DNA of 64,000 nucleotides from Polychytrium aggregatum (lineage: Eukaryota; Chytridiomycota; Chytridiomycetes; Polychytriales): assembly GCF_025602895.1 (NCBI RefSeq), contig NW_026516234.1, forward strand, positions 372,001-436,000. Reading direction: 5' to 3'. Every line of letters begins with the position of its first letter. The first letter of the stretch is position 1. A program made the translations under genes and the position numbers. The notes beneath the pieces were generated by a model, which searched no databases, had not been told where the DNA came from, and worked only from the letters and a program-made list of their open reading frames with translations. Positions 7,832 through 64,000 of this stretch are shown here, in pieces.

Positions 7832-7860
7832 CAGTCAATCCAGAAAATAACGGGACAGTC
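7832..7860. repeat. TIR-like terminus, preceded by TA
   Basis: Begins CAGTCAATCCAGAAAA and continues to ACGGGACAG, with TA immediately before (7830-7831). TA target sites and short CAGT-starting ends are usual for Tc1/mariner/pogo elements. The same sequence, slightly varied, occurs at 53920 and 62088. Confidence 0.6.
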
Positions 7861-26496: not shown

Positions 26497-27703
26497 CAAC
26501 GCTCAACCAAACGGAGCCCCGTGCACGATGGATGGGGTTTCCCACCACTTTGTGGATGGGACATGCATGCCCCATCGTTCCCAATGGCCATCCACACCGT
26601 GGAAGCTGTACAAGGAATATGCCCTCAGCCCTCGTCTGCTTCCTTCCATTCCGACAAGCTCCCGCGAGCTCCGCCACTGCCGCCACCACCATCACCAGAG
26701 AAGAATAAGCTTCATGGGACCATCGGGGTGCGTTCATGTCGTAGTAAATGTCGTTGGTGACCCGCAATCCATCGCATCGGTGCACCACAGCCCAATATCG
26801 CGACGCCAACGCAATCAAGACGACATGGTCAAGGTGTGCAAATCGAGCGTCGCTGACGGATATCGATGAGTGGGGGGGGGGAAACTTTGGACAAGCAAGA
26901 TCCAAGGTCTTGTGGGACTCCATGGCCATATGGAATCCATTGGCACTCAGCCAAGATGGACTTGGCAGCAACGATGGGCGGCAACACCAAAGATACGGCG
27001 GCTCAGCGAGACGACATCGCAGCAAGAGCTCGACTGGTGAACACTGTCCAACTTTCTCCACACACAGGATATCGGGCGTCTCATTTACATCACACCCATA
27101 ACGAGACACGTTTCTGGACGCAGGCGGGGGCTTTCTCCGCATGTGAATGCCCACAATCCATCGCCCATCGCGGCCAAACAGTGTGTCCATGGAAACTGAC
27201 ACTGGTTGCCTGTGGGAACGCATCGTGAAAGCAAGGAAAGGGAGAGATATATCCGTCGAGCCCACGGGGACTCAACTTTGCTTGGTATTTCGAGCAATCC
27301 ATGCATCACCGGGGGTGTCCACCAGGCCCATCCGTCTCCAAGATCCATGTGTGCTCGGTGAACGAGCTCAACACATCCCAGGTGTGCTCACAGTGCCCGG
27401 AGGCCGAGCGCCTCGTTTGACCTGGCTGGCTTGATATCGAGAAACCATGAAGCTGTGCAGAGGGTCGGATGCATCCACCACACTCCCACATCGAGACATC
27501 AATGCCTCACGGAACATGATCTGAGTATGCCAGTCCCGTCGCCACAGGGAATCGGTCGTGTATTCATGACCATGCTTCCCAAACCAACCAAAAACAAAGA
27601 GATTGCCAACCTAGACTGGAAACAATCTCGCGGCCTGCTCACTGGGGCCTACAGTCAGTCAGCGGGATTCAGACATCTGAAGCCAGGAAGGAACTGTCCT
27701 GTT
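26497..27703 (+). mobile_element. Relic A: decayed Fanzor/TnpB-like nuclease gene (best preserved copy)
   Basis: Fanzor proteins are eukaryotic homologues of bacterial TnpB, RNA-guided RuvC nucleases carried by transposons. Read on the plus strand this copy keeps, in order: a tentative RuvC-I-like VVGDPQS (from 26750); VACGNAS, an in-frame TGA at 27226, then KQGKGEIYPSSPRGLNF; VNELNTSQVCSQC (27358-27396), matching the RuvC-II/zinc-ribbon signature; and, after a frameshift, ETMKLC followed by HRDINASRNM (27489-27518), the RuvC-III RDxNAxxN signature. Frames change and stops intervene, so it is a pseudogene. The same sequence recurs inverted at 53920-55151 and partly at 35083-35628 and 7832-8150. 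The 278-codon open frame on the opposite strand (26429-27265) has no recognisable domain and is treated as a shadow. Confidence 0.7.
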
Positions 27704-27739
27704 TGCTTGGTGAATAGAGTGCCCATGCCTTGACCGTAC

Positions 27740-28573
27740 CTATGCGTGTTCGTGGTCCACCGGTCCTTGATGCGACGATCCCATAGCGTGGTTGGCTCGG
27801 ATAATGTCCAGACCCGTTTGACCCGATATTTCCCCACTATCCTGATCTGAGGAATCCATGAAGATCATGTGGAAATATCCCATGTGGAACAAGAAAAACA
27901 CTGCAAAAGTGATCATTCCCACATTCGTCATGAGCCGAAACTGCAGCTTGCGCGCCTGATTGAGCCCCCGGTAGTACTCCTCCGAGCGGGGGTGCTGATT
28001 GCTTGTTGGGCCGCTTGGGCTGGCGCTACCTTCGTAGTGTTGTGACTGGTGCTCGGTAAAGTTGTAGGGATTCGCCTGATATCGCTGATGTGCTCGGTCG
28101 TTTCTGAATATGATCCAGTCCTCCGGTCGCATTTGCTCGCGCCGGCGATATGTTGATCGACGTGGGCCTGTTCCAGTCGAGCTCTGTCGATACGTGCTTG
28201 AAATTGCCTCTTCATAGTCGAGCGATCGGTCATACTCGGCCCGCTTTTGCTCGTTGGAAAGTATGGAATGCGCTTCATTGATTTCAAGGAACTTTTTGTG
28301 GGCCTCGTCATCCTCGGGGTTGCGATCGGGATGGTACAGCTTGGAGAGCTCGAAGAACTTGGCCTTGACTTCCTTCCGAGAGGCCGACGGGGGGATTCCC
28401 AGAACATGGTAGAGTGTCTTTTTGGATCCAGCGTGCTCCAGGTTGCTGGGAGATGCGTGGAAAAACCTTGGCAACCCCTGCAGACGGGGCCACGCTCGAG
28501 AAGAAAATACAGCCCGGGAACCCATCGGTCCGCCGGCTCTGGCCCAAGCGATGTGTACGGGCAGCAAGATCAT
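27740..28573 (-). CDS. J-domain (DnaJ/Hsp40) membrane protein, probably mitochondrial
   Basis: A co-chaperone that would stimulate an Hsp70 ATPase. A single exon of 277 residues from ATG 28573. The N-terminus is rich in Arg, Ser and Ala without acidic residues (RAVFSSRAWPRLQGLPRFF), typical of a mitochondrial presequence. The J domain spans about residues 42-105, with TLYHVLGIPPSASRKEVKAK, the catalytic HPD in YHPDRNP, and FLEINEAHSILSNEQKRAEYD. A linker rich in Arg and Tyr follows, then one hydrophobic helix (VGMITFAVFFLFHMGYF) near the C-terminus. Together this suggests an inner-membrane J-protein with a soluble J domain. It is divergent from MetAP2, with 219 bases between the two start codons. 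The exact orthologue was not identified. Confidence 0.88.
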   Translation of the reverse strand: MILLPVHIAWARAGGPMGSRAVFSSRAWPRLQGLPRFFHASPSNLEHAGSKKTLYHVLGIPPSASRKEVKAKFFELSKLYHPDRNPEDDEAHKKFLEINEAHSILSNEQKRAEYDRSLDYEEAISSTYRQSSTGTGPRRSTYRRREQMRPEDWIIFRNDRAHQRYQANPYNFTEHQSQHYEGSASPSGPTSNQHPRSEEYYRGLNQARKLQFRLMTNVGMITFAVFFLFHMGYFHMIFMDSSDQDSGEISGQTGLDIIRANHAMGSSHQGPVDHEHA

Positions 28574-28792
28574 TGTCGACCGATGGCAAGACCGCAGGGC
28601 CGCTGTCGCGCTGCGGATCGTCCTTCTGCGCTGGTGCCGTTCTGTGGCGCGGCCCGTGCTGCCACGGACCGGGCCGTGCGCTCGAGCTTGGACGAACACG
28701 TGACTTTTTTCTTGCCTGTGGCGGCTGGGTTTTGTGTCCGCTGCTCGGCGCCCGCGGCGCACCGGCTCATCTCGCAGCAAACACCGACGACG
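28574..28792. promoter_or_regulatory. Shared divergent promoter region (J-protein / MetAP2)
   Basis: Only 219 bases separate the two divergent start codons, so both promoters and 5' UTRs must lie here or within the neighbouring coding sequence. GC-rich, with no TATA box seen. Confidence 0.5.
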
Positions 28793-31547
<2,755 letters not shown>

Positions 31548-31894
31548 GCAGCCGTGCGCGATCGGGGATGGTGACTCGTTTGGGTGGCCACATCGGCGAA
31601 CTGAAGTACGCGGACAAAGATATGGCCTCGGGGTCGAGAGTGGCGGCGCATACTGACCGATCGCTAGATCCTGGATGGCTGCTGAATACAGTACAGCTCG
31701 GGTCAGGGCCGCTACGACGCAAGGACGTGCGTTCGAGGTCACATGTTGATGACAGCCCGCGAGCGAGTCGGTCCGTTCAGAGAGCGCTTCCTTTCGTTGA
31801 TAATGGCTGAATTCATGAGATAGATATATTTATCGAAATCATTGGACATCTCGCTGACGTCCCAATGAAACAGGGTCGCGGATGCTAGACATCG
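31548..31894. other. Convergent intergenic region (MetAP2 / QCR7)
   Basis: Holds the 3' ends of both genes. No additional gene was seen; short frames only. Confidence 0.5.
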
Positions 31895-33063
31895 TTAGGT
31901 GCTCTTGTTGCGCGAGCGGAGGTTCTCGGGGATGCCGGTCAAAAGATCAAAAGTCTGTTTGCAGGCGACTTCGGCTTCAACTTCGGCGATGATGGGGCGC
32001 AGGTACGGGACGTCCTGTGGCAATTGACGAGACGAAGGTCAGGTATTGGTTAGCGTCTGAAGTGGCATGCCGCTGCCTGATAGCAAGTTGGCAACAGGTC
32101 ATGGTTCCGCGTGCTGTTTAGCATTCGGATTTCGATCGACTGTATATCGAATGCCTTGATTGTCTTGTCGGAAGTCACATCAATCGCGTAGAAAGCGATT
32201 TGACCAACAGTGTCTTCGGTGGTGCTTGGTATCATCGCACACGAGCAAGGCGAGCCAGTGCAAGAGATGACGACACTGATAGACACGACACGATCGCCGG
32301 GGTTCAATTGGTAGCAGTTCAAAGCTGATTTTGTGCGGGTACTTGTCGAGCTGCAGTCGAAACCAAAACGAATCCATGGTGCCGCTTTGATCTTGTTGAG
32401 TTTGGCTGAGATCGTGCTGAGGCCAATACTGCCCACGCCTTGTCCCCCTCACAGCCAAAGCCACTAAATTTCCGTTGACTTTGGTTCACAAAGGAACCTT
32501 CCAGGGCGTAATACGCACCTCAGAGGGCTTGGTCTGCTCGGCAACGGGGAGAACGGTCTGGTGGAGCGAAATGTTGAGAGCGCGGCGGAAACGGAAGGTG
32601 CGCTCGTTGAACTCCTGAGGAGTCAGGCGCTTCAGGGCCTCAGAGACGATGGGGCCTTCGTCGGGAATAAGATCGTCGAACACAAGACCTGTCCGTGAGA
32701 AAGTCGGGACATGCGTTAATAATGTGGAATGTACACAGGTATCGATAGGCAGAGCAGAAACTACTGATGCAAACGTGTTGGCGGGACACGCCCGCTTCCT
32801 CGGCAACAAATCGCGCCAGGATATACATCCAGGACGCACGCCAAAGGAATTGCCAGGCACGGAGCGCCGCTCTGCCGATGCCAGATCCGCTCGGCGGGCC
32901 CAGGATGCGGATTTGTGGGCCGGCTTGGTTGAGGCATATTAGGGCTGCGGCTCGCAACTTTACCCGACTTGCGGTATCCCATGAGGTTGGCATGAGTCTC
33001 GCGGAGACTGGCAAAGGCCTTGCTGGCCTTGAACTGGCGAACGGCTTGCAGGAGGTTGTTCAT
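31895..33063 (-). CDS. QCR7: Cytochrome bc1 complex subunit 7 (QCR7/UQCRB family)
   Basis: A small matrix-side subunit of mitochondrial respiratory complex III. Minus-strand exons read as 33063-32964, 32688-32519 and 32014-31895, totalling 390 nt (129 residues), with intact GT-AG junctions and phase. Recognisable blocks: the N-terminal MNNLLQAVRQFKAS; GYRKSGLVFDDLIPDEGPIV across the first junction (compare the family's GYRKLGLKFDDLI); EALKRLTPQEFNERTFR; and QTKPSEDVPYLRPIIAEVEA across the second junction, the family's DVPYL signature. The ATG at 33063 gives the standard length; a TTG three codons upstream is in frame but unnecessary. It lies head-to-head with the BCP1-like gene. Confidence 0.95.
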
Positions 33064-33366
33064 TGTGCTCAAGTCCCGACGGAGGTGCTTGGATCGGCGG
33101 TATCGACACGGAAGGGCAGATGGAGAGCAGCAGGTCTGACTGGACCTTTGGCGCTGTCCTTGATGCTGGTGGCAGCGTGCGCTGTGGCGAAAAAATTTGC
33201 GACAGGCCCCGCGCTGTGGAAGCAGCGCGCACAGTCCGCGCTTACGTAACGGCCAGGCGCGCCGGAAATGAAAACTTCATGAGGCCAAATCAGGCTACAT
33301 GGACGGGCTGGGACGGCCAGGACAGGGAAGCCGTGGCCACAAGCCGATCTCGCCTGCACTTGCTCG
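33064..33366. promoter_or_regulatory. Shared divergent promoter region (QCR7 / BCP1-like)
   Basis: About 300 bases between divergent start codons. No TATA box or specific site was recognised. Confidence 0.45.
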
Positions 33367-34907
33367 ATGCAACACTCCAGCGATACGATGAGACAAGCAA
33401 AGCGGAAGACGCGAGGCGAAGAGGGGCGGGACGACGAGGATGTGGAGATGACACACGCCGACACCTCCAATGCCATGGATGAGGTGGAAGACGACGATGA
33501 CAGCGAGAAGGTAATCGGCACGGGCTGTGCCCCATCGTTCAGAGATGCAGCTTGGGCTCCCGAGGAACGACCACGCCATGGCCGCAAAGGCAGTCGAATC
33601 TTGCGTGCTGACTGGGACTTGCTGGTCACGATCGTCGGTTAGGAGCTTGTGGATGTCGATTTTGTCTTTTCCGAGCCCCAAGAGATTGACTTCCATGGCC
33701 TCAAGTCGCTCCTCCGACAAACCTTTGGTGACGACGCAGATAACCTGCCTCTCTCCGAGCTGGCCAGCACTGTGATCGATCAAAGCTATATTGGGTCCTG
33801 CGTCAAGGTCGAGGGGGAACTTGACCCTTACGCAGTGATGTCAGTCCTAAACCTCTCAGCACCGAAGGTACAGAGTGTGTTGCCATAGAAACCTCTCGAT
33901 CGTTCCAGAGTTCAAAGTCCGATCCATTAATAGGAAACTGGGATCCGTTGCCATTTTTCATCAAGGACCGAGAGAGTATCTCGTCAATTCGAGCCTATCT
34001 TCTCCAAAAGGCCAAGAAAAACGCGGAGATGCAGCGCAAACTGGCAGCGCTTCTGGAATCCAGCGATCATCACATTGGGCTCTTGATCAACGAGCGTCTC
34101 ATCAATATGCCTCACCAAGTTGTCCCAGCAATGCTCAAAATGTTGCTCCAAGAAGTTGACAAGGCCATTCAAGAGGTTACCATCTATAGCTGGGAGCAAG
34201 GGTGGGCTGGCGAAGAGAAGCGAGGCTCAGGTGCCTTCATATACTGCGGCGATCACTGTGGCTGACCTTTCTTCACGGGATCAAACGCGCCCAGAGCAAA
34301 CCGTTCAAATTCGAGTACTACATCATGATATCCAAAACGTACAAAGAGGTAGAGTCGCAGCTGGAACAAGATAGCGATGGCGAGGACAAAGTCGAGTCGC
34401 AGGAAGCATCGAAGAAAAATAAAAAGCAAAGGCTGGTAAGTCCCGCGGATTTAGCGCTATCGACAATAACGACTTGAGTCCATAGAACGTATCCTCTGAC
34501 TCACTTCGTCATCGACGAACTCAACTCTCCCAAGGTCACGGTTTACTACTTTCAGCAGGAGGATGAGCTGATTGAGGAGGTCAGTAGTAGGCTGTAGCGA
34601 TCGGAGATCTAGTTTGAAAGAATGACCAAATCATCGGCTAGGGGCAAAAGGAGCCATCCGCTAGGAGCAATGGAGCTATCCGCTGGGATCGCAGATCGAA
34701 ATGTGATGACGTATGCCGATAACACTGCACGTTTATCAGTTCGCCGACTTCAGCTACGACTACAAGTTTTCCAAAGAGGGCTCGTCCTCTGATTCCAAGA
34801 GAGCCTTTCAGGAATACGGCATCGATCCGTCCAGAAGAGTCTTTGTCATCCACCGCTCTAAACTGCCCGAGATATTGAAGAGATTCGAGAAAGTTCTCTC
34901 TGCTTAA
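33367..34907 (+). CDS. BCP1/BCCIP-family nuclear protein
   Basis: BCP1 in yeast is a nuclear protein needed for nuclear export and as a ribosomal protein chaperone; BCCIP is the animal homologue. Exons read as 33367 (or ATG 33388)-33510, 33643-33867, 33909-34175, 34295-34435, about 34487-34578 and 34740-34907. Conserved blocks: an acidic N-terminus (DEVEDDDDSEK); VDVDFVFSEPQEIDFHGLK; DQSYIGSCVKVEGE; ALLESSDHHIGLLINERLIN; MPHQVVPAMLKMLLQEV; FEYYIMISKTY; VTVYYFQQEDELIEE; and the C-terminal ADFSYDYKF with VFVIHRSKLPEI. The junction into the exon near 34486 does not keep phase with my reading of the previous donor, so either that border is misread or there is a small indel. Homology is clear throughout. 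Confidence 0.9.
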
Positions 34908-35082
34908 CTCTTGGAACCTTGCATTGTTCTGTTAATTGGCATAGCGAGTTTGAAATGGTTCCCTGATAAATCCAAACCGCCACCACCAAGCTTGTTCGGA
35001 ACATGAACGAGCAGCGCCGATGATTACTAGAGTAACCATGAGTCTGAAGTCTGATGATCGTTTACGGCTGCATCACCTCAGG

Positions 35083-35628
35083 CGTGCGATTGTTTCCAGT
35101 CTAGGTTGGCAATCTCTTTGTTTTTGGTTGGTTTGGGAAGCATGGTCATGAATACACGACCGATTCCCTGTGGCGACGGGACTGGCATACCGAGATCATG
35201 ATCCGTGAGGCATTGATGTCTCGATGTGGGAGTGTGGTGGATGCATCCGACCCTCTGCACAGCTTCATGGTTTCTCGATATCAAGCCAGCCAGGTCAAAC
35301 GAGGCGCTCGGCCTCCGGGCACTGTGAGCACACCTGGGATGTGTTGAGCTCGTTCACCGAGCACACATGGATCTTGGAGACGGATGGGCCTGGTGGACAC
35401 CCCCGGTGATGCATGGATTGCTCGAAATACCAAGCAAAGTTGAGTCCCCGTGGGCTCGACGGATATATCTCTCCCTTTCCTTGCTTTCACGATGCGTTCC
35501 CACAGGCAACCAGTGTCAGTTTCCATGGACACACTGTTTGGCCGCGATGGGCGATGGATTGTGGGCATTCACATGCGGAGAAAGCCCCCGCCTGCGTCCA
35601 GAAACGTGTCTCGTTATGGGTGTGATGT
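35083..35628 (-). mobile_element. Relic B: truncated Fanzor/TnpB-like relic
   Basis: Nearly identical to the right half of relics A and C, inverted relative to A. It carries the VNELNTSQVC block and HRDINASRIM, where the last Asn of the RDxNAxxN signature is Ile. Homology to C stops abruptly at about 35628 and on the left at about 35083, so both ends are truncated; no TIR remains. Confidence 0.75.
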
Positions 35629-39000: not shown

Positions 39001-42000
39001 TGCATCCAGTCCAGGATTATCCTGGATTCTTCGCCGAGGATTCAGCTACTCTGATCCACACAGAAAGTATCGTTGTCAGCCTGCCTGTCAATCCTCTATC
39101 CAACATCATGATCACATGTCCGTTGCCGCAGATTCCTGGGATCCCAAATGGAGCAACCACTGTGCCCTATCCATTCATGGTACTCAACCGAAGATGACAT
39201 GGCTTGCTGCACCTATGGCGCTTCAACAGTATTTTGGCGGCCTCCGAGGATGCTCTTTATTTTCTGAAACTTCGTGCTTTGCACGCAGTAGAGTGCGTGG
39301 CCGTCGACTTTCTATTGATTTTTGGACGGGTACTCTGTGGGCACGACATAGTCCCGAGCCGTGTTGTGATTGTATCGAGCGCTTTCTGTCATAGATTTTG
39401 GATCGGAGTCGTACTTGACACCCGGGTAGATGTAAAAGGGTCGACTGACGGTTGCTAGCGCATCACCTTTGCTGGTAATTTATTCACACCGACTTTTCCG
39501 CCCGACTTTGACTGCCCACAGGATCAATCTGCTCAGGATAAGCTTAACAAACCGCCAACCCACAAATACGAGTATTTGGAGCGCACCGGCCGAGTTCCTG
39601 GCCTACCATTTGGATTTACCTATGCCCCTGGTCCCTTTACTGAAGTTAAAGCTCCACATGCTGAAGGCACAGACACAAAGGGCGGCGACAATGAGAAAAA
39701 ATCTGCAACCTTGCAAAATTCGCTCAAGATCCTCAGAAGAGTTTCGATAGTTGCTGGGACGATGGGGGCTCTTCGCAGAAGCTCCACAGTCAAAGGCCGT
39801 CCCTCCATTTCGGAGGAATCTCGGGATGAATGCCATTCCGTCGAGAGTAGTCTTCGAGACGAAGGCGACCTGGAGCGATCTGTCGTTCCGGCCGGTATGA
39901 CGAAAACGCCTCCACGAAGTGATGTCAGCGACTACAAACGTGGGCCGCCCGGATTCTTCAGCGTGTGTCCCTTCCCAGGCTACGACCCAGATAGAATGCA
40001 TACAACGCCACCGTCGCTTATCTACGCCAATGCATCGGCACACCCGATTGGCAGACAACCATCAATATCGGGCGATTCTGGACCAATGTTTCTTCGCGGA
40101 GCTCGAGAGTCGAAGGCCATCAAAAGCCCCATTGACAATCCGAGTCGAGTAGCAGAGGATATTCCGGAAGGATACATATCAGATCGGCATCCGGTGCTAT
40201 GGCCAAGCCAGATTCCGTAGGTTTGGGCTGAATACTCTGGGGCCGCAGGATTCAAGACTCTTTTGCTGATTTCCAGTACCTTACCTTGCCATATGCAGAG
40301 GTCTAAAGGCCGGAGGCACATCCAGTGATTTTCTGGTCAACGGTCCCGTCATCTTTGACATTATTCAGCCCAGAACCCAGAAGTTGCAGAGGGTGTTCAC
40401 GACTGTACTCAGTATCAACAAAGAACTGTCGGCGATTCATGTCCAGAACAGTACCAGCAACTCGTGGGTACCCAATGACGCTGTTTGTGTTGAATGCAAG
40501 CTTGAAAATGCAGCAAAACTGATGCCTCCAGCCTTATTTCTCAGCAATGTTCTGGAAATAGGTGCAACGTTCAATATCTTTATTAGATCACGAGCCGATC
40601 CGGATAAATGGGTATCCGTCAACCTAGAAGTCATCGACGACGACTATGATGACGGTAAGAGGCGTCCATCATGAAGCGTTATTGTGATTTTGTCGATGCT
40701 GTTGAATTTATGGCTGAATCAGTTGCAGCGCAATTCGCTAGATTGCCCGGAGGGCCTCCTGTCGACTGTGTGGATGGGGTGGCTGACCTGATTGCAATTT
40801 CATTCGGCTGTGAAATCTAACTGGACTATATATGTATTTCTCATGTTCGTCGCCCACACGTCTGTGATATTCTCCGTGACTTTTACAATGTGAATTGGGT
40901 CCATCTAAGATATGTCGCCTGGACTCCCAAAGTACCGCTCAAATGCTATTCAAGTTCCGGTTGACGCATCGAATGCTTCGGAAGTCGCTACAAAGGCGGC
41001 AAAAGTGCCCAGTGACCGGTTGTTTCACTTCCCCATACCGTCGGGCTATAGTGGAACTAACGAGCCATATTTTGCACCGCCCTTGAATCTACCTCCTTTC
41101 CCTATCGGGTACACCGCGAACCGCATCCCATTTTATGGAAAAACGGCGAGCATCAAACCCATTCCAGCTGGAATGACAAACTTTGGAACCCGATTTTACA
41201 TCGAAGGGCGGTCCACACCAAATGACTCGGCCAAAAATCTCGTTGCCGGCTACGATAATAGTGGTTTCCCCATATTCCTGCCGAGGGGTTGCAACCTTCC
41301 ATCGCCCTCGGGATTCACTCCGGATGGAATCGCCTTTTACGACATTCCATCCATGATGCAGCAACGAGGAATAATGGTCCTCCCAGCCTCACTGAGCATT
41401 CAGGCAACGTGGCCATTGCTGGGTAAGAGTGCTGAGCCCGAGTCGCCCGATGCAGACGCTGGGCAAAGGCATGATATTCTGCAGAAGAAGCATCAGGAAC
41501 GACTTCGAAATCTTGTCGTCTCCCTGGAGTCGTCTATGACCCAAGTTAGCGGCCACTTTCTTCGCGGTAGTCAGAGGCCAGTAGGCGATCTGAACAGGGT
41601 CTCACAATTCAATCGGGTGCGACAGCAAGACGAAGACTGTGGGACCGAATATCTTGAGGATCCCGACGACATCATTGGATTCCTCCGAGAGAGCGAAGAC
41701 ACAGGTTACCTCAAAGCGCATGGAATGAAGGTTATGATCGATCCAGACATACTCAAGTTCCAAAGCGTCCACGCGCCTGTCACCAACAGTACGGTTTTGC
41801 GCTATCGTGCGGGTCGCGGCGACCATGAAGAGCGCGATTTCTTTGTTTCCGTCGAGCCGGTCGACATATTTTCGGTCAAATCATTCCATTTCCGCCTTCA
41901 AGGAGAAGGTGTACTCGAAATGGCAGTATCATTCAATCCCAAAGCGATGAAAGCGGACCAGGTCGATGGCTCTCTTCACCTCATCGACGACTCTGGGAGG

Positions 42001-45000
42001 AAGCTTGCCATGTGCCGACTGGTTGCCCTCAAGCAGAGCTTTGTTCGAGTCTCGCCGCTTTCCATCGATGCAGGCTGGATCCTTCCGGAGAGGCGCAAAG
42101 AGAGCATTCTCAAGATTGAGAATGTATCTTCTGGCGCTGTCAGCATCAATTTACGCATGCAAAGCGATGCAGCCACCACCAGCGGGACCCCGCAAGCTCC
42201 CAGTCGACCTCAAACGTCCAGAAGCGGACCCTTTAGCGTTGCACTCAAGACACTCAAACTTCAGCCGTATGAACAAAAGTCTGTCCCGATCTCGTTTGAG
42301 TCAGCCAGCCTCGGTCGGTGCAGCGACGTGCTGGAAATTCATTCGCCTGGAGGCGACATGATCAAGGTTCAGCTCGTGGGGATCGCCGGAATCCCAATTA
42401 CCTTGTATCCCGAGGACGCCGAGAGCTCCATGGCCGGCGCAGCCGCATTGACTCGCGAGCGATGCGAGTTTATGCGAAAATTCCAGCGAGGCGACTCCAA
42501 AGACAAGCCTCATCTCAATTTGTCTCCGACCGATACGGCCATCTTGAAAAACATGATGTCGGCCACGTCCGATCAAGAATCCCGACGCGAGGCGCACACC
42601 TTGGATTTTGGAATATCGCCCATGGATTCACATGTGCAAATGAGATGCCTAACATTGATGAATCTTTCGGATGTCTCCATCACCGTCGGGCTCTACTGCC
42701 AGCATCCGGCCATCAAATGCCCATATTTGGTCCGCATAGCCCCTCGCATGGCCAACACCGTCGAAGTTGTGTTGAGCATGGCGAGTTCGCTAGCCGGCCG
42801 TGCCACAGGGAATATCAAGACCATCATCGAGGTTATTTGCCCAGAGTTTCAAAATATTCCGCTGACAGTCCGAGCATTCATTGGCCAGCCACTGTATTTT
42901 CCATCATGGGAGCTGGCCTTCTTCAAGCCCGCACGCATCGGCGACACCGAATCGGTCACATTGTTCCTCATCAACGAGTCGCAGTACAACATCAGTTTCA
43001 TAGCTCGTGGAATCGAAGCCCCACCACCCGACTCGAATCAGAACTTTATTATTTCATCCATATCGACAGATGAAGCATCGCCTTCGCTCATCTCTCCAGT
43101 TTCGGCTATACCTGTGACGTTTGTGTTTAACGCTCGACAGCGGGGACCACTTCTCCAGTCAGTCAGATTCAAACTTCTCACGCCGTTTGAACTAGAAAGT
43201 CCAAGTGCCATGTTTGGGAAACCGCTCTCGCTTGTGGGAATCTGTGTTGAACCGTACATCCATCGACCCGGAGAGCTCCCAGATAAAAACGGCATTGATT
43301 TTCTCAGAATGTGGATGTCGCACCCCAAACGCGTGCTGGATGAGTATCCATCGCCAGAGGAGATGGCCCAAAGGTTTGACCTGCAGCCGGTTCTCAAGCC
43401 GCTTTCACGCGGGTCGATGGTTCCGTATACTCCACCCGCCGGAAGTAATCAAACCACGGCTTGCGCCACTTACTGCGAGGCCGTCTTCATTCGCGACAAT
43501 ATCGAGTTCAAGATGGGCGCCAAACTCGTCGGCCAGTCCGACAACTTTCGGAGATCTCAGCTGCAGCCCGTGCCCGTCAAAAACCGAAGCAACCATGAGC
43601 TTACCGTATCTTTTCTTGCCAGCACGCTGTTCACCATCGATCCAAGATCAAAGACGATGCCTCCACACGACTCTGGCAATGTCGACGTCATGTTCGTCCC
43701 GCCTCTCGAAAGCCCGGATGTATTGCGATTTTACGGGTTTGGAATGGCCTTGCTTGAGCATGACCACAGCTTTCACGCCATTCAAATGATTGGCAAGAGC
43801 GATACCGACTTTTTGATCTTTCCACCTCCAAACAAGGATAAGCAGATCACCCTCGACTTTGGCCGCGTGGAGGTATCGTCGTTAGAGATCAGCCAAAAGA
43901 CACTGCTTCTGTGCAATACCTTCCCAGCATCATATTCCTGGAGCGTCAAGATGATCAGCGGAAAGTCCAAGTTCTCGGCCTTTGAAATCGGAATGATCCT
44001 CGGGGAGCTCCACGCCTACGAAACATATCCGTTGGTATTCAAATTCCATGCCGACTCGTCCGGGACTTTTGAGAGCATGGCCGAGGTTCACATAGCCGAA
44101 ACGCTTGATCGGCACGCAAAGCCCACGAAAGTAGCAACCGTGCTTCTGCGTGGACAGATGGTCAACACCTCACTCTTTGGATGTCCCGATGTCCTCGAGT
44201 TCGGGAGCACCGTTGTCTTTCAGAAGAAGGAGAAAAAGTTCACCATCACCAACAATGGATCAACCGAAACTTTGGTGACAATCCTCGTCAAGCCCCCGTT
44301 CTACGTGGGTATCAAGTCCTTTCATCTGACCCCGAAAGCGCAGCAGGAAATAGCGGTATCGTACCAACCGACCGAGTCCCGATCGACTGTGATCAAGATG
44401 CTGGTATTCTCAAACCTGAGGCTCTACATTGTCAATCTCTCGGGCACGGGTGGAACGGCCCAGTTGATATGTGAGAAGTACGAAGACAGGGCCATAGACT
44501 TTGGATACCAGCGTGAGGGTACGGTGGCTTGGCTCCCGATATACGCCACCAACAAAGGGACCCTTCCACTTTCTTTGAAAGCAATAACAAGCGACAGCCC
44601 AGACTTGGTTAAAATCGAATTCCTGAACATCACCTCCACCGTGCCATACGAGGGGACGACCTCCGGCGCTGGAATGATGCACATCAGGATTCGCAAAGAT
44701 TACTGGAGCATCCTAAGAAGGAAGTTTCAAGTTTTCAACGCCTTGAAGGACCTACTGAAGGTGGCCAAGGGAGCAAAGAGTCGGTCCGACTATTGGAGCG
44801 ATGGCGATCGCAAGGATGATCTGGGAATATCGGTGCAGATCCACAAAACAGACACAATCGATATCTTGGGCAGCAGCATCCCCGAAATCACACCCATTCT
44901 GCGGCCCTTTTATTCGTATCATTTTCTGATCGGATACTGTAACAAGTATCAGACCAAAACGGACACCTTCATCGATTTCCACTACATGCCCGTGACGACC

Positions 45001-48000
45001 GAGGAATCGACAAACAATCTCCCGCTGTTGCTCAAGTCGATGAGACTGCATGTGGACGGAAACGCATATCGACCACTCGAATTCTTTCCACCTTTCCATG
45101 ATTTCGGCATAGTCGCGACGGAAGCATATTCGGGCAAAACAGCGAAAGAGCCCGAGTCTGCTCCCTCGTTCCCGTACGGCGTCGTTCGCCAGGAAGACGA
45201 GTCAAAATCACATACGCTGATGTTGCAGATCATCAACATGTCGATGGAGACCCAAAATCTCTCACTCCAGTATATTCATCCGGAGTTTTCCATAAGCGGG
45301 CGATCATGGCACCTTCAGCCCGGAGAAAAGCTTCATATTCCTGTTGATTTCCATCCTCCAAAGGAGCAGGTTCAATATCGGGGCGAAGCTAGGTTCCTCC
45401 ACAAACATGGCGTCTCCACCATCCGACTCGCAGGCACGGGAGCTTCAGCAGATCTTATCTGCGATCGCACTCTCGACTTTGGCAGTCTCAAGATCGGCAC
45501 AACCGGAACGCGTGCCCTCAAACTCAGCAATCGCGGTCTGATGATCTGTCGGTTCTGGATATATATCTGCCAAAGCAACGGCGACTTTAAGCTTCATGGG
45601 AGCGACCCAAGCGAATACGAAGGCTCGGTGGAATCTGGCTGCTCCACCACTGTTACGGTTGAGTGCTCAACCCAGTCACCTATCGAAAAGCCCGCCCATT
45701 TGCGTATCAAATGGCTGCGCGTTCCCGGAGGAATCTGGGAGCAGACCTTGGTCCCGCTGTTTGTCCGCATCGGCATACCTATATTCAAGATCCATAAGTC
45801 CGAGCTCGACTTTGGAACGACCTATATTAATGTCAACAAAGTGCTGAGTCTTCTGGTATCGAATGACGGAAACGCTGTGTGCATGTGGAGTTCTCGTTCA
45901 GAGAGCGTCAACATCGAAGCGTTTCCAAGCACAGGTGTGATCAATCCTGGAGAAACATTCAGCATCCGAGTCAAATACTCACCGTTGGACTATCAGCCTC
46001 TCTCTACATCGCTGTCCTTTGAAACGGATGCCGGGAACAAGGTTGCGATGTGCTACGGAATCGTCGGAGTTCCATATTTGATGATTTCCAAGGAGCTCAT
46101 GGCAATTGATTTCGGCATTGCGGCTATCAACAAAACGCATACGCGCTCCATCGAAATGGAGAACACGGGGAGCAAGCCGATCGAGTTCGAGGTTTCGATC
46201 TTTGAAAATACCCAGGATGGGGTTCCTTCGTACGATGAGGACTATGACATATTTTTTGCGGATCCGCCAAGCGGAGTGGTTCAGCCCGGCGAAAAGGCAA
46301 AGATCATGTTCCATGGCATTCCACGAGAGTACGGGGCAATCAACACCGCAAAGTACATGATACGTACGCGGGATGGGGAGCAGTATACCGGTAGCATCTG
46401 TATCACGGGTGGGAAGGCAATCATCAAGCTCGCACCTCCAAAAGTAACCGATGAGACAACCAAGCCGACGACCGCAGAGCAATCCCGCTCTACCCCTCAA
46501 TCGCGGCTTGGGAGCACACCGACAGCGCGGAGCACAACCACTTTCGAAGCCGGGCAGATGGCCATGTTCTCCCACATTGAAAATTTACAGGAGATTCTGG
46601 CTGGACTGCGTGCTGCCGAGCTCGATAACGGTCTTGCCGAGTCGAAGAGACAAGGGCGCCCAGATGGCTCCAGAATTCATCAGAGACACGGGACACGGGT
46701 ATCGACTTTCAGCCGCGAGTCTGTTGACAGCCGCCAGCCTTTCACACCCACTTCGGCTCACACTTCTACAGCGGCATCAGGAACTCCGCGCAGAAGACGA
46801 GAGGGATCGGTAGGTTCCGAAGTCGGCGGGAGAGGTACCACGGACGACGAGGCGCTGCGTTTCATACAAGGAACTCGGGTCTTTGATGGCTCCGATTTCA
46901 AAGGCAAAGCTACATCTGAATCCGGAAAGCAGGTCCGATTTGGGTATACCCCCAAATCGGACGAGGATGGTCAGGATGGGGCCATGTTCGATGTCCCTAG
47001 CACTGCTTCCGAGAGACGTGCGGATACCTCAAGCACTGCTGCAAGTCGAATCGAAACTGGCGATCGCGAGTCTCGAGGCATCCAATCTAGACGATCTTTT
47101 GAGCGCAGATCGAGCCGCTCTCAAAAGAGTACAGCCCCTCAGGCGCTCCCGCATGAGCTGGATGATGAATCAGCGGCTGTCAAGTACATGGACGAACTCA
47201 CAGCAATAGAGGCTGAGCTGGAAAAGGCTCTCCTCAGCGAAATCGATATGGCCGCTGACCTTCAAGGCGAGAATGGCCAGGATAGGCGGTGGATCGGCGG
47301 ACTTGGCCGATATCGCCCTGCTCAAGAGCGGCGAAGACTCCCGGATCGATCGACCAAACCAGATGTTGCTTCCCGGACTCCTGAGCCCGATCAAGCTGGA
47401 TACAAAGGCGATTCTAAAACATCCGGAGCCAGTCCAACCGGACCGTCAAAGGGTAAAGAAGTCAATGGCGAAGGTGCCGAAGCTGCGAAGGGACGACAGC
47501 TGCGTGAGCACGGCGCCAGCGAGGGAGGCTCGGAGGAGCCGCATGCTGAAGCAGCCCAGCGCATCGAGCATACACTCGGGAACTTGATCAACATGGCACA
47601 GGGTCTGATGAATCAGTCGCGCATGATCTTGCACGGCTATACCGAGAAGACCAGCGAGGAGATTGGGCTGCTCAAGAAAAAAATCGATGCTATCAACAAC
47701 AGAGTCATCGAGAGCACAAAGTCAATCATGAAGAACGTCCGAGATCAACTCTCGGGAGAGTGGGTGCCAAATCGGGAATTTCTTACAGGCACCTTGCGAC
47801 GTTTGCAAGCATCCAACCATGTGGTCGAGACCCTCACTCAGCTTTCCGTTTCTGCCAAGAAGGACGATGACGAAGTTGACACATTCAACCTCGGGCTCTT
47901 CAGAATCGATCAAAGGAGTGAAGACATTCTCCTCTTTAACCTCCCTAACACCGGCAACCTCAGCTTTGATTTTGAACTAGTGCCCATCCTCAGCCAGACA

Positions 48001-51000
48001 TGCGTTCCTCCAGGAGTCGAGGGTGACGGATTTGAATACTTCCAGATCACGCCCTCCTCTGGTACGATCGATCCTCGAAACTCCATCAACATCTCAGCTT
48101 CTGTATTCGCGGCGACTCCCGGGCTTTATCAGCAAGGATACGAGCTGCGCTCTGCAGGAGAGGTTGTCCTGTCCTTCTATCTCAGTGCTCGCATTGGTGT
48201 CCCTCGAATCGAGCTCGCTCCAGCGATATTGGACTTTGGACTAGTGACTCGCCGAAAAACGAGCACACGGACGCTCTTGATCTCAAACGCCGGTACTTTC
48301 CGGGATATCTGGCGTATCGAGCCTATCATTGCTGATGGTGGATCCCAGGCGATGTTTTCTGGCACGGCTTCCGGTGCCAATCGTCTCCCCTTCGAGTGCG
48401 CGCAGCAGCGAGGCGAACTCGAGCCTGGAGATTCCGTGGAGGTCGGCATTAGCTTCAGTCCAACCAATGAAGGTCCATACCAACAAAAGTACCGACTAAC
48501 GTGGAGTATGGCTCCGATATCGTTCGAGACGAAGGGCATCGGGGGCGGTGTACGCATCAAACCCACATATGTCGATCCGGCAGATATCCAATTCGGCGGC
48601 CTCGACTGGGGGACTTGTGTCGTCGGTGTTGGATATACAAAAAAAATTGACCTCAAGAACATTGGAAATGTCGATGGCGAGATCGAAATCAGGAATCCGC
48701 ATCAATTCCTACAAATCGAGGCACCTAAAAACAGCCGTGGTGGAATAGTGGTTCGATCGGGGGAGTCTATTCCTGTGACCCTCACCTATCGGCCTCTCGA
48801 AAGTCTGAACACAAAAGAAGGAATCAAAATTGCCCTGCCCGAGAACGACTTTGTATCGATTCCTTTCAAGGCCACGGCAGGGGTGTGCTCATGGAAAATC
48901 GACAACAGACTCAGTCTCGTCAATATGTCAATCAACGATATTCAGAATGGTCGAATCACGGTCATTAACGATGGAGAGCTCGATATTCCTCTGGAGGTTC
49001 AGATGTCTCAGCCCATCTCTCCGAACATCAGCTTCATAACCAAAGGCTGGCGAGCCGACAAGAGCTTGATTGTTGCTGGTCAGGAGATCACCATCGATCT
49101 CACGGTAACACCAAAGAAGCCCGAACTTTTCGATGGCAGCGTGCTGTTGATGACAAATCTCGGGAGGGGAACCATCACCGAAACAATCCCGTACAAATTC
49201 AGGGCCTATGCGGAGGCCGTCGCTCTTGACGACGACGACGATGCTTCAGTCGGAAGAATCATGGTTGGCCAAACGGCTTCTGTGAAGCGAACCCTCACCA
49301 ACTTTGGTAACTCCGAAGTACGCTATCGTGTCCGAATAGAGGTATACACCCCGGAGCATGCGCTCAAAGGGTCCCTCGATAGCGTCACCGAAGGCGGAGG
49401 CGTGCCCAAGCGACTTGCCAAGAAGGGTAAGGCTGGAAGTTCGATGGGATCCCAGAGTCTCAAACAAGGTCGATCAAAGTCCAAAATCCTGGCATCGTCA
49501 GAACATGTTCCAGCGAGAACCCCATGGAAGATCAGGGGATTGTCTGGTAAGCTTGTGAAGCGATTTGCTGCGAAATATCCTTCATTGTAGATACGAAAGT
49601 TGCTTTATTTGCTCCCAATCTGACACGACACATACCAAAACTAGAGGGAATTCTTGAGCCCGATAAAACCATTGACATCGAAGCCATATTTGAATCGCTT
49701 GATGAAGATGGTGACGACTGGCACGAAGCCCGACTTGTTGTCGAAAAGTGCGAGGTGAGCACACGGTTGAATGGAATGAACCCCTCCTTCTTGCTCACCT
49801 GATCTCATCAATTTCGTGTACATCTGTTTACTAGGGGAGCGTTTGGGAGGAACTCTCCTCGCTCAAGCTCGTTGGCGCAGGCGGTAAACCAAAACTCGTT
49901 CTGGATACTCAAGCTGTGGACTTTGGACACGTTGGAATCGGGGCTGAGAAGACCGCGGTGGTTCTGCTCCAAAATGAGGTTGGTTCTTCTCGATCTGTGA
50001 GACGCTATTTGATGCATCAAGGCATGAAGGCCTATCTGGGCCATCGAACAAGGGATTTGTTCTTGCAACCGATACGAGCTGTGGAAGCCCCCCCCCAATT
50101 CATATTCTAGGTTATTGGCGGCTGGCTAAACATCATGTTGACCAGAACTTGCCCAAACCTCGTAATAGGGCACAGCAATCCTGGACTATGAGTTTGTGCC
50201 ATTCTGGGACTTTGATGTTCAAATTCGGCTAGGAGAAGCTGTCCCAATGAAGGGCCATATTGAGCCTGGGGGGTATTTGAAAATGCCCATTTATATTCAA
50301 GCCCGATCAAGACATTGATTACTCCTCGACAATCGAGATACAGACCCAGGTTGACAAACAGACGGTGGCCATGACAGGGAGAGGTAAGCGTCACAATCGA
50401 GCGATGCATGTTTAGCGTTTTCTGACTGACATCCACCGATTCACAGGTGCGGTATATCGAATATATGAGGCGGGATTGCCAAATTACATCGACATGGGCA
50501 CGATATATCTTGGAGAGACAAGTGAAAGCTTTGTAAGTTTGTGTCAAGCCCCGTAACAGATTCGAGAATAATGGAGGCGACGAGGTCGGGCTAATAGGTT
50601 TTGTGTTAACCAGATCAAAGTTATGAACGACTGTGAGTTCGAAATCAATGTTGCGGCGGCGGTGTTCCTGTCCGACCCGAACGAGCATCCAGACGCAGAA
50701 ATCGCAACACAGTTTCGGACCTTCCCCGAGCTGTTTGATTATCCCGCGAACCCGCAAGACCCCGGCAACAATCAGGTATACATTACTGATTGAGCTAGTT
50801 CTGACAAGAAATCGGCACTGAATCAACCTCTATGTAGTCGATCGTCAGTCTCGGTCTCATCCAAGTTGTTTCCACCCTTTCCGACAGCCACCGGGGCCAC
50901 CCTTGACATAAGTGAAGCAACAGCCTTGGTGGGAGGCGGCAAGAAGAAGTTTATCTGCAGGCTGAGAGTGATGGCGGACGATGCATCAGCGTCAGTGCCT

Positions 51001-53919: not shown

Positions 53920-53957
53920 CAGTCGATCCAGAAAAAAAAAAAAAAAACGGGACAGTT
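53920..53957. repeat. TIR-like terminus of relic C with poly-A run
   Basis: TA (53918-53919) then CAGTCGATCCAG, a run of 17 A, and ACGGGACAG. Same layout as at 7832 except for the expanded A tract. Confidence 0.6.
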
Positions 53958-55160
53958 CCTTCCTGGCTTCAGATGTCTGAATCCCGCTGACTGACTGTAG
54001 GCCCCAGTGAGCAGGCCGCGAGATTGTTTCCAGTCCTGGTTGGCAATCTCTTTGTTTTTGGTTGGTTTGGGAAGCATGGTCATGAATACACGACCGATTC
54101 CCTGTGGCGACGGGACTGGCATACTCAGATCATGATCCGTGAGGCATTGATGTCTCGATGTGGGAGTGTGGTGGATGCATTCGACCCTCTGCACAGCTTC
54201 ATGGTTTCTCGATATCAAGCCAGCCAGGTCAAACGAGGCGCTCGGCCTCCGGGCACTGTGAGCACACCTGGGATGTGTTGAGCTCGTTCACCGAGCACAC
54301 ATGGATCTTGGAGACGGATGGGCCTGGTGGACACCCCCGGTGATGCATGGATTGCTCGAAATACCAAGCAAAGTTGAGTCCCCGTGGGCTCGACGGATAT
54401 ATCTCTCCCTTTCCTTGCTTTCACGATGCGTTCCCACAGGCAACCAGTGTCAGTTTCCATGGACACACTGTTTGGCCGCGATGGGCGATGGATTGTGGGC
54501 ATTCACATGCGGAGAAAGCCCCCGCCTGCGTCCAGAAACGTGTCTCGTTATGGGTGTGATGTAAATGAGACGCCCGATATCCTGTGTGTGGAGAAAGTTG
54601 GACAGTGTTCACCAGTCGAGCTCTTGCTGCGATGTCGTCTCGCTGAGCCGCCGTATCTTTGGTGTTGCCGCCCATCGTTGCTGCCAAGTCCATCTTGGCT
54701 GAGTGCCAATGGATTCCATATGGCCATGGAGTCCCACAAGACCTTGGATCTTGCTTGTCCAAAGTTTCCCCCCCCCACTCATCGATATCCGTCAGCGACG
54801 CTCGATTTGCACACCTTGACCATGTCGTCTTGATTGCGTTGGCGTCGCGATATTGGGCTGTGGTGCACCGATGCGATGGATTGCGGGTCACCAACGACAT
54901 TTACTACGACATGAACGCACCCCGATGGTCCCATGAAGTTTATTCTTCTCTGGTGATGGTGGTGGCGGCAGTGGCGGAGCTCGCGGGAGCTTGTCGGAAT
55001 GGAAGGAAGCAGACGAGGGCTGAGGGCATATCCCTTGTACAGCTTCCACGGTGTGGATGGCCATTGGGAACGATGGGGCATGCATGTCCCATCCACAAAG
55101 TGGTGGGAAACCCCATCCATCGTGCACGGGGCTCCGTTTGGTTGAGCGTTGGATTGATCT
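53920..55160 (-). mobile_element. Relic C: near full-length copy of relic A with TIR-like end
   Basis: Inverted, almost identical copy of relic A, from a TIR-like end at 53920 (TA before it; CAGTCGATCCAGAAAA, a 17-A run, then ACGGGACAG) through the nuclease blocks to about 55151. The other end shows GGATTGA near 55151, a weak match to an inverted TIR. Compared with A it has Ile in HRDINASRIM, and a C-run near 54770 changes the opposite-strand frame. Non-functional. Confidence 0.7.
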
Positions 55161-61640: not shown

Positions 61641-62087
61641 CGGATGTGCACAGCGTACGATTTGAGATTTAAGGCCGCACGGAAAGAAAGCCAGATGACA
61701 GCCACCAATTTAGTAGTACCCAGCTTGAATACCCGACTTCCCCTCCCCACCACCACTCGAAAGTTGCTTCCTCCTTGCCATGGCAAGTTGGATGCAAAAT
61801 GGCAGCTTTGTCCTTGATTGTGCAGCATCGGATTGAATGGGAGGACCTTCCAGTACATGTCCGCTCTGCACCAGGTGAATATATGTGTTTCCCAAAGCCG
61901 GAACCTCTGCCGGAGATAGGGGGGGGGTGATTCCACACGTGAGCATTACTCTTGCAATCGGTGTCTGGTGTCTCGATTGAGACTTCGATTTGGAGAAACC
62001 AGCACCGCTCTATAGCCGTTTGCTCGGGATGAAACGGGACGGCGCCAATTTATGCTCTACTGGTGCGTCGCCCCTTGCTTGTGGTTA
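61641..62087. other. Spacer between metacaspase and transposon
   Basis: No gene supported. May contain the metacaspase 3' UTR. A G-run at 61920 and short frames only. Confidence 0.4.
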
Positions 62088-62114
62088 CAAGCAATCCAAT
62101 AAAAAACGGGACAC
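62088..62114. repeat. TIR-like left end of the Tc1/mariner-type element
   Basis: CAAGCAATCCAATAAAA followed by ACGGGACA, preceded by TA (62086-62087). It matches the relic ends at 7832 and 53920 at most positions and lies 84 bases 5' of the transposase ATG, where a Tc1/mariner TIR is expected. Confidence 0.55.
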
Positions 62115-62171
62115 CCGGGTTTTTGACCATTCATCGAATATTTTGTTACCCAATGTTATCGCGCGCTGGCC

Positions 62172-62978
62172 ATGACCATTCGCCACACATCCGACTTTCG
62201 CACCGCCGCATTGCGATGCTACGATCTCATCCATAGCCTGCGTAAGGTCGCCTCCATATTCAGTGTATCCAAGAGCACCATCCATCGATGGCACCGAGGA
62301 TGCAAGCTGGATGACCCATCCCGGGTCCCAGCTCGCAGATCCACTTTCTTCGAGCAGGCATGTCCAGTCATTCGCACCCTGATTGAACAGGACCCGTTCC
62401 AGACTGGTCCTGTGTTGCGATGCAAGCTCGAGTCCATCCTCCAGAGGAAAGTATCACTCTCACTCTGCCACACTGCCATCCACCGAGCAGGTCTCTCACA
62501 CAAGAGGGCAACACACCTCTACAAGTCCAAGCGACTGGATGAGCGAGTGGCACAGTTCAGGAACCAGGTCCGCTCCATCGACCCGCGGCGATTCGTTTTT
62601 GTCGATGAGACAGGGATCAGGAGATCCATTTTTCCTCTTTACGGATACTCACCGAAGGGTGCTCCGCTTCGCCAGCGCAATCACATGAAACACAAGTCTG
62701 TCTCAGCTGCATTTGCCATCAACCACTCTGGTGTGCTGCATCGCATGTACATCCCCACATCATTCAAGACACACTCGATGGTCGAGTTCTTTGAGCGAGC
62801 GGCCTTCCCAGATGACTCTGTGGTTGTGATGGACAATGTCAGCATGCACAAGACAATGGCTGTCCTGGACTGCATCGAGCGCCGAGGATGGTCAGTGATC
62901 TTCACCCCACCTGCCTCACTCGACTTCAATCCCATCGAGAACTTCTTTGGGGTTGAGTCCCCACCGATTTGGGGTTGA
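62172..62978 (+). CDS. Tc1/mariner (IS630-type) DD34E transposase
   Basis: Cut-and-paste DDE transposase, 268 residues, uninterrupted. The N-terminal helix-turn-helix (RKVASIFSVSKSTIHRWHRG) and a second winged-helix-like region (LESILQRKVSLSLCHTAIHR) bind the element ends. Catalytic residues: Asp in RFVFVDETG, Asp in SVVVMDNVSMHK, and Glu in LDFNPIENFFG, 34 residues after the second Asp (DD34E). Only twelve residues follow the Glu (VESPPIWG then TGA at 62976), shorter than the usual C-terminal helix, and these last codons fall inside the GGGG/CCCC repeat. The C-terminus is therefore either naturally short or replaced by a rearrangement. The N-terminal half matches the decayed piece in relic D. 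Confidence 0.92.
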   Translation: MTIRHTSDFRTAALRCYDLIHSLRKVASIFSVSKSTIHRWHRGCKLDDPSRVPARRSTFFEQACPVIRTLIEQDPFQTGPVLRCKLESILQRKVSLSLCHTAIHRAGLSHKRATHLYKSKRLDERVAQFRNQVRSIDPRRFVFVDETGIRRSIFPLYGYSPKGAPLRQRNHMKHKSVSAAFAINHSGVLHRMYIPTSFKTHSMVEFFERAAFPDDSVVVMDNVSMHKTMAVLDCIERRGWSVIFTPPASLDFNPIENFFGVESPPIWG

Positions 62979-63008
62979 GCTCCTCCAATTTGGGGTTTAG
63001 TCCCCCAA
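62949..63008 (+). repeat. Three GGGG-TTGAGT-CCCC hairpin repeats, 21-22 bp apart
   Basis: Units starting at 62949, 62971 and 62992, each TTTGGGGTTGAG followed by a C-rich half (TCCCC, CTCCTCC, TCCCCC). Units 1 and 3 are small inverted repeats (GGGG...CCCC with a six-base loop). They overlap the transposase stop and precede the next gene. Confidence 0.8.
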
Positions 63009-63114
63009 TCACGCCGCCATTTTCGCGTTCACATCCCTGGCTTGAACCTCTCGGCGATTTTTGAACAGGGTCACTTCCCCAACCAGCCCGCGCAGACGGG
63101 TTCCTGCTCTCGGG

Positions 63115-63120
63115 TATAAA
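63115..63120 (+). promoter_or_regulatory. TATA box candidate for the downstream ORF
   Basis: TATAAA in context CTCGGGTATAAATGCC, followed by a CT-rich stretch (63125-63170), about 130 bases before the ATG at 63251. A good core promoter for the element's second gene. Confidence 0.5.
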
Positions 63121-63250
63121 TGCCACACCTTCGTCCTGCTGCTTTCTTCCCTCATCTCGCCTTGATCTGATCATCGCGCTATTGTACGATAAAAAAAAAG
63201 TCTCTGTTCTGACCAGTACCACTGGCAGGCATCCAGCATCCTCTGCCCCC

Positions 63251-64000
63251 ATGCCTCCGAAGCGCAAGGGTACCGGTGATGGCCAGCCTCGGCCACCAGG
63301 CCCAAGAAAGCCAAGTCACAGTCGGAGCCTGTCTCTGGTTCGTATTCTGACCCCACGCATGCTTGGTCGTCTGTTGCTCCGTCGCTCACCACCACTGCTT
63401 CTGCAGATCCAATGGATGTCGATCCCACCGAGCCTGGTCCATCTACTTCCTCGAGTACTGGCAAGCGATGTCCCAAGTGCGATGGCACCGATCACGAACG
63501 TTGCAACACCAACAAGTGTCCCGAATACCGGCCCCTCAAGAGTTCTGTCGTCCCACTCGTGGATGGAAGGTCATCCGCCCCTCAGTTCAGCTGCTTCAAG
63601 CAGACGATGGATGGCTGTTGTCTCAATCCCGCTCTCCGCGACAAGATCCAGGCCACCGTCGAGGCCATGACCCAGATCCAGTTCGAGGCATCCAGGCTGC
63701 TCAACCTGCACATCCTCCGGTGCATCGAGCAGGATCTTCCCGTCCCCGTCATCTCCAAGTCCACCCCTGCTTTCATCCGCCAATGCTTCACGATTGTCGA
63801 GGCCGGTGCCCTCTCGCCGACCGGGGACAATGAGAAATACAACGAGCATCTGGTCGCTTCCTTTCGCGACTACCAGACCACTCGGCACGCAGACCTGCCT
63901 CCGGCCCCTCGTCTGCCTGATGGTGCTCACAGTCAGCTTCTCACACTGGCTGTCAATGCCTATGCCACCAACTGCACCACCCACCTCGACCTGGCCTACT
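63251..64000 (+). CDS. Zinc-knuckle transposon protein, candidate Fanzor1-type nuclease N-terminus (partial, frame shifted near start)
   Basis: Runs off the right edge. ATG 63251 starts a basic MPPKRKGTGDGQ in one frame. From about 63283 the protein-like frame is ASATRPKKAKSQ, two bases out, continuing through ATG 63412 (MDVDPTEP) without a stop to 64000. So there is either a frameshift near 63283 or a start at 63412. The sequence then has a zinc-knuckle-like CPKCDGTDHERCNTNKC, CFKQTMDGCCLNPALRDKI, helical LLNLHILRCIEQDLPVP, FIRQCFTIVEAGALSPTGD and LLTLAVNAYATNCTTHLDLA. I believe this resembles the N-terminal region of fungal Fanzor1-like proteins, but that is from memory; the catalytic RuvC half would lie outside the window. 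The link to Fanzor is supported indirectly by the nuclease relics elsewhere that share this transposon's ends and transposase. Confidence 0.45.

Follow-up and report, generated by a model that had tools for sequence, protein, structure and literature searches.

The right-hand end of the window, the 64,000 nucleotide stretch of DNA that was analysed, raises the question of whether a transposase gene and a Fanzor-like reading frame that follow one another there belong to a single transposon and, if so, what the nuclease does for it. The window corresponds to positions 372001-436000 of contig C246, in a genome of 64.7 Mb and 418 contigs. An initial annotation had proposed that one transposon carries both genes, and extension past position 64000 bears this out. 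Together, the window and its extension contain one 3.64 kb transposon with a transposase gene, then a Fanzor1-type gene, between one pair of inverse ends. The extension was numbered as locus L001, to which 62000 is added to obtain the window position. The features of the element, and of a related relic, are as follows.

62085 to 62087, no strand assigned: TTA at the left border, made up of the TA adjoining the element and the preceding T, which 42 of the 44 left sites share; this is the predicted TAM.
62088 to 62113, plus strand: left terminal repeat; in the family form, 19 of its 26 positions match the right repeat inversely.
62172 to 62978, plus strand: DD34E transposase gene of IS630/Tc1/mariner type, a C-terminally truncated variant of 268 aa versus 310 aa.
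62946 to 63009, plus strand: tandem TTTGGGGTTGAGTCCCC-like units at a deletion junction, their number differing among copies.
63115 to 63120, plus strand: TATAAA 5' of the Fanzor gene, identified as a motif only and also present in aligned copies.
63251 to 64000, plus strand: N-terminal part of the Fanzor1-type gene, with a frameshift near 63297; the gene ends beyond the window, at the equivalent of approximately 65627 (L001:3627).
Equivalent of 65700 to 65725 (L001:3700-3725): right terminal repeat, inverse to the 62088 end.
7830 to 8374, minus strand: relic D, an old and diverged deletion relic of a related element, with the N-terminal part of a transposase, a C-terminal Fanzor fragment and a terminal repeat.

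At the left border, the TA and TIR-like end annotated at 62088 are present, as is the TATA box, and the inverse repeat that was looked for downstream ends at the equivalent of 65725. What had been read as three hairpin repeats (approximately 62946-63009) are instead tandem units that vary in number between copies; as a variable tandem repeat, they were rejected as a separate mobile boundary. The zinc-knuckle ORF does run past the edge of the window, but the basic N-terminus that had been assigned to the same ORF is in a different frame, the frame that opens at 63251 shifting near 63297. Beyond 64000 the RuvC and zinc-finger motifs that had been sought are found: the zinc-knuckle ORF reaches a GIDPG RuvC motif, and another frame break precedes a zinc finger and RDVNAARN. 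In the allelic copy of the locus (L063, on the allelic contig) the Fanzor frame is open over 809 codons. Relic D, which had been said to join the same transposase to a Fanzor C-terminus, does contain both fragments on the minus strand, but it is diverged, a 230 bp stretch being 80% identical in DNA sequence to the transposase gene. The terminal repeat core AACGGGACA occurs four times in the window against 0.45 expected, and a chance origin is excluded because the same element recurs genome-wide.

It is clear that the transposase and Fanzor genes form a single mobile unit. Two elements inserted separately, side by side, would each be expected to have ends of their own, and in the 27 copies analysed a single pair of ends surrounds either both genes or a deletion of these. 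Among the listed matches, both lists being partial, 46 of 143 for the transposase pair with one for the Fanzor at a spacing of 1215-1262 or 1321-1347 bp. With both genes between shared ends in copies that have many different flanks, the side-by-side arrangement was rejected as exceedingly improbable.

Elsewhere in the window, the host genes include those for a Gti1/Pac2 regulator, of a fungal family, and an IP3-receptor-like channel. Positions 40909-49590 hold a single open frame of 2893 codons, the first 1200 residues of which match HYDIN/CFAP65/ASH domains. Judging by these genes, the host is probably a fungus with flagella. A short tandem-like sequence at approximately 19782-19826 has many 87-92% matches in other contigs, with a 24 bp spacing.

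The transposase frame is uninterrupted, as annotated, and matches DDE_3 in a profile search (E 1.6e-19), with 34 residues from the second D to the E when counted by eye. The IS630 model NF033545 is matched at 121.7 bits, against a cut-off of 100, and DDE_3 (PF13358) is also above its cut-off. By these profile matches the element is of the IS630/Tc1/mariner type. A PF01359 profile search of the genome had no match, and control genomes likewise had none. The annotated gene is, however, a truncated variant. Homology to the 310 aa family form stops at residue 261, a short junction peptide closes the frame, and the last 49 residues are missing, which would fit a deletion between short matching stretches.

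The Fanzor assignment can best be judged on the intact 790 aa protein of locus L034, which reads D539-X178-T718S719-X2-C722/C725/C748/C753-X5-R759D760. This fits the published Fanzor1 motif, D-X(125,275)-[TS][TS]-X-X-C4 zinc finger-X(5,50)-RD (PMC3627910), and all 30 copies retain its residues. Marks of Fanzor proteins include DPG at RuvC1 and, six residues ahead of the zinc finger, an alternative glutamate (PMC10711439); GIDPG and E715-X6-C722 are present, the aspartate being kept in all 30 copies and E715 in 29. A TDG motif in the WED domain is a Fanzor1 feature (PMC10711439), and STDGIG stands ahead of RuvC1, as judged by its position in the linear sequence. The gene also sits between the ends of a mariner-type element, which is a eukaryotic, non-IS607 transposon. 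The Fanzor-type profile search that had been suggested gave a match to PF07282 above cut-off, and NCBIfam and PHROGs gave weak C-terminal matches, which were unnamed or named for TnpB, Cas12f or transposases. SpuFz1 was not found when the sequences in the PDB were searched with the Fanzor, the best match being LaTranC at E 0.79, so that membership of Fanzor1 rests on motifs, Pfam and context rather than on a direct match to SpuFz1. The viral contigs searched contained no relative of either protein. On this evidence the nuclease is very probably of the Fanzor1 type, and there is good reason to predict that the intact copies encode an active RNA-guided nuclease.

The element is abundant. With up to 2 mismatches allowed, its right end occurs 292 times in the genome, while the reversed-pattern control has no occurrence. 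Junction patterns at the same tolerance identify 142 copies with a full-length transposase, 114 with the truncated form, and 16 with an internal deletion, of which four were read, each being 1114 bp. The longest copies analysed are approximately 3740 bp and those with the truncated transposase are mostly 3611-3641 bp. Protein searches of the genome scored 143 of 523 transposase candidates and 80 of 436 for the Fanzor, and the 30 Fanzor loci analysed are the top-scoring ones; the figures for intactness and pN/pS are therefore biased toward intact copies. Of these loci, 26 have a frame that stays open for 751 codons or more up to the common end, although in two of them, L035 and L048, a stop interrupts the first 40 codons. 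The gene is interrupted in the window copy (L033), L040, L050 and L062. An intact transposase and an intact Fanzor are found together in the same copy, for example in L034 and L049. Among the copies analysed, in this biased sample, purifying selection acts on both genes: pN/pS is 0.27 for the full and 0.26 for the truncated transposase, and 0.39 for the Fanzor (0.32 without transition weighting), the variable Fanzor sites being divided 119/95/237 over the three codon positions.

The 3' end of the element is conserved in 14 copies. Fourfold-site diversity is 0.03 and 0 in the last two windows of Fanzor codons, against 0.05-0.12 from codons 60 to 720, although it is also low, at 0.02, in the first 60 codons. 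When the folding of the 3' piece was compared with shuffled sequences, 110 nt folded no better (z -0.90) and 210 nt gave z -2.35. An Rfam search of L034 had no match at the gathering score. The 1114 bp form retains both ends and the last 449 bp, and it would therefore keep a putative 3' guide RNA, in which it resembles the ghost loci of Spizellomyces punctatus (PMC10432273).

If a guide RNA is made there, a target-adjacent motif might be visible in the flanks. From 57 left ends, 44 distinct left sites were obtained, together with 26 distinct right sites. TA, a putative target duplication, is present at the left end of all 44 and at the right end of 25 of 26. The left TA is preceded by T at 42 of the 44 sites, against a window background of 16%, whereas A follows the right TA at just 4 of 26 (Fisher p 4e-12 versus the left preference). 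A symmetric preference for TTAA would raise both sides, and as the left one only is raised the preference is one-sided. In S. punctatus, a conserved CA stands ahead of the left repeat, and with TA it gives CATA, the measured TAM of SpuFz1 (PMC10432273). The one-sided T, seen with this parallel, makes TTA the predicted TAM of the family Fanzor, a prediction that is reasonably probable. There is a smaller though appreciable chance that the T instead reflects a transposase with unequal ends, which might orient the insertion without any part for the Fanzor. The two ends are indeed not equivalent, their repeats agreeing at only 19 of 26 positions, but the bases conserved before the left repeat in S. 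punctatus do belong to a measured TAM (PMC10432273).

At five sites (L036, L046, L053, L054 and L055) the first two bases of the element after the left TA are not CA. These two bases equal the first two of the right flank at 4 of the 5 sites, versus 3 of 18 sites with CA, and such ends may be occasional 4 bp duplications.

The state of each insertion site on the two homologues could be assessed since the assembly looks diploid, three 120 bp pieces of the window each being found at two contiguous places at 99-100% identity (C246 plus C3 or C163). The joined flanks of 23 sites had no contiguous empty-site match among the matches listed, in searches that scored 40 of 388 and 40 of 340 candidates. 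When ten of the 23 were rerun, the three pieces of the window were included as positive controls and ranked first. For 20 of the 23 sites a partner locus was found, and all 20 partners are occupied, as judged by sequence or by split flank matches with element matches or element-sized spacing alongside; for L039, L053 and L055 a single locus was found. The structural type differs at 7 of the 20 partner pairs. Full and truncated transposase alleles face each other at L034, L047, L062 and L050 (the last by size alone), and a 3.5-3.7 kb copy is opposite the 1114 bp form at L038, L054 and L056.

The alleles differ far more inside the element than around it. Across the flanks of ten allelic pairs, 39 of 8,204 sites carry substitutions. 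One left flank (L043/L052) accounts for 27 of them; its outer 32 bp are unalignable and its other 164 bp have 1 mismatch by BLAST. Without those 32 bp, the difference is 13 in 8,172 (0.16%). For nine of the pairs, 706 of 27,677 interior sites differ (2.6%, range 0.3-4.4%), the tenth (L054/L067) being left out as its 2.5 kb deletion was misaligned (153/1,083; by BLAST 22/1,114). At the window locus, 129 of 3,631 sites differ inside the element versus 1 of 861 outside. The median difference between random pairs among 27 copies is 3.95%, and the four complete allelic pairs rank 0, 2, 6 and 192 of 351 by difference. Most alleles are thus nearer than random pairs, yet far from identical. The L007/L012 alleles differ at just 7 of 2,387 interior sites, so exchange is not seen at every site.

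The sites with alleles of different length are particularly informative. Where a 3.5-3.7 kb element is opposite the 1114 bp form (L054/C9, L038/C93 and L056/C135), the left flanks are identical over 74-167 bp; on the right, no flank has more than one substitution, and the alignments contain 0, 6 and 18 gap columns. In addition, both L054 alleles share a left end that no other site among the 44 has. Matching flanks and a site-private left end, combined with differing interiors, indicate that the interior was replaced in place, and interiors are therefore exchanged between alleles. Independent re-insertion at the same site was rejected, since the alleles share site-private left ends. Errors of assembly or polishing within the repeat are an improbable source of the differences. 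The copies are similar enough for reads to be mixed, and the window contig has scattered one-base gaps against C163. However, the same 2.5 kb internal deletion form is present at three sites with both flanks matching, the site-private left ends are shared, the loci analysed contain no N, and a 942 bp repeat at 54 kb is unchanged between the haplotypes.

This repeat (53945-54884) served as a control: its haplotypes differ by a single indel and no substitution, whereas comparing the same allele with the 27 kb copy gives 5 mismatches in 942. On C163, the 27 kb copy has 6 mismatches versus its positional partner and 2 versus the 54 kb copy; for the 35 kb copy these values are 10/806 and 1/618. A repeat without an intact Fanzor has possibly been exchanged as well at the 27 kb and 35 kb copies, where an inversion complicates the comparison. 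The haplotypes differ at window positions 27638-35079 versus C163 (L064, L065) by an inversion or misassembly, which lies between inverted 551 bp repeat copies at 27087-27637 and 35079-35628. This 551-942 bp repeat family contains broken pseudogene fragments of a Fanzor C-terminus at 27046-27536, 35179-35516 and 54113-54603 (43-63% identity), and its 54 kb copy has a terminal repeat core adjoining; the family represents an older, related element.

A role for the Fanzor could account for both the missing empty sites and the exchange. It is the transposase of such elements that moves them, and here the DD34E transposase would insert the element at TA. An RNA that begins at the Fanzor gene's 3' end and crosses the right repeat would take in the right flank as its guide, and the Fanzor would cut the chromosome wherever TTA directly precedes that flank, which is to say at the empty site. 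Repair from an element-bearing homologue or sister would restore the insertion, so that both homologues come to carry the element at its sites, and a switch of template in the course of repair would swap interiors and spread the deletion forms. That retention driven by the Fanzor explains the absence of detected empty sites and the exchange is put forward tentatively. Taken as a whole, the reading of the family as a mariner-Fanzor1 unit with guide-directed retention is evenly balanced. Its furthest extension, which is speculative and rather unlikely, is that the Fanzor is a natural eukaryotic homing system, guided by the right flank and recognising TTA as its TAM. It would destroy empty or excised sites and force repair from copies bearing the element; the family would fill both homologues and undergo concerted evolution, and shortened forms that carry the guide would spread by replacing other copies where they stand, not by new jumps.

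About as likely as the Fanzor to be the cause of retention and exchange is ordinary gene conversion. On this account, equally tentative, the insertions are old and fixed, interlocus conversion among hundreds of copies swaps their interiors, and the Fanzor is a passenger or helps in transposition only. Conversion requires just many similar copies, a family-wide pool with a median pairwise difference of 3.95% accounts for allelic interiors that differ by 0.3-4.4%, and flanks that differ by only 0.16% imply that the insertions are older than the divergence of the two contigs. The 942 bp repeat may have been exchanging too, although its copy at 53945-54884 has no substitutions between haplotypes. 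A Fanzor that is nothing but a passenger is made less likely by the purifying selection on its gene and by the asymmetry of the TTA.

The biological role of Fanzor nucleases has been stated to be unknown (PMC10432273). Here, an intact transposase and an intact Fanzor occur in one high-copy element in a diploid-looking assembly, and the pattern of the flanks predicts a TAM. As occupancy and interior exchange can be measured on two haplotypes, retention or homing by the Fanzor is directly testable, and the system offers a way to test what these nucleases do in nature.

The same logic has been described for TnpB of IS200/IS605, which acts as a gene drive in plasmids by cutting element-free sites recorded in its guide (PMC11870625). 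That case is bacterial, experimental and without a DDE transposase (PMC11870625), whereas this one is eukaryotic, has a DDE transposase and is inferred only. The element SPu-1 of S. punctatus, which encodes SpuFz1, is similar in that its Fanzor1 gene lies in an element with terminal repeats and TA, and in having conserved bases ahead of the left repeat, a 3' guide RNA region and shortened ghost copies (PMC10432273, PMC3627910). It differs in being approximately 2.1 kb with the Fanzor only, no transposase having been found between its repeats (PMC10432273, PMC3627910). Its TAM, CATA, was measured (PMC10432273), while TTA is predicted here, and no sequence match between the two was found. With other IS630/Tc1/mariner transposons the element shares a DD34E transposase (NF033545, PF13358), inverted repeats and TA at its ends; unlike them, it carries an RNA-guided nuclease gene and has T favoured before the left TA only.

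Among the titles and the starts of abstracts searched, most subscription papers lying outside the search, no description was found of a mariner-Fanzor1 element that is equally abundant, exchanges its interiors between alleles and lacks detected empty sites. The kind of element is itself already known, since mariner-Fanzor1 elements were described in 2013, and this family is a further member. PUl-1 and PGv-1 are Mariner elements with a Mariner transposase and a Fanzor1 (Bao and Jurka 2013, PMC3627910), and they resemble the present element in combining these genes and in having TA at their ends (PMC3627910). PGv-1 is a single-copy, viral, three-gene element, and PUl-1 is only briefly named in the relevant part of that paper (PMC3627910). 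Unlike these, the element described here is present in hundreds of copies in a fungal host, has truncated-transposase and 1.1 kb forms, and exchanges its interiors between alleles.
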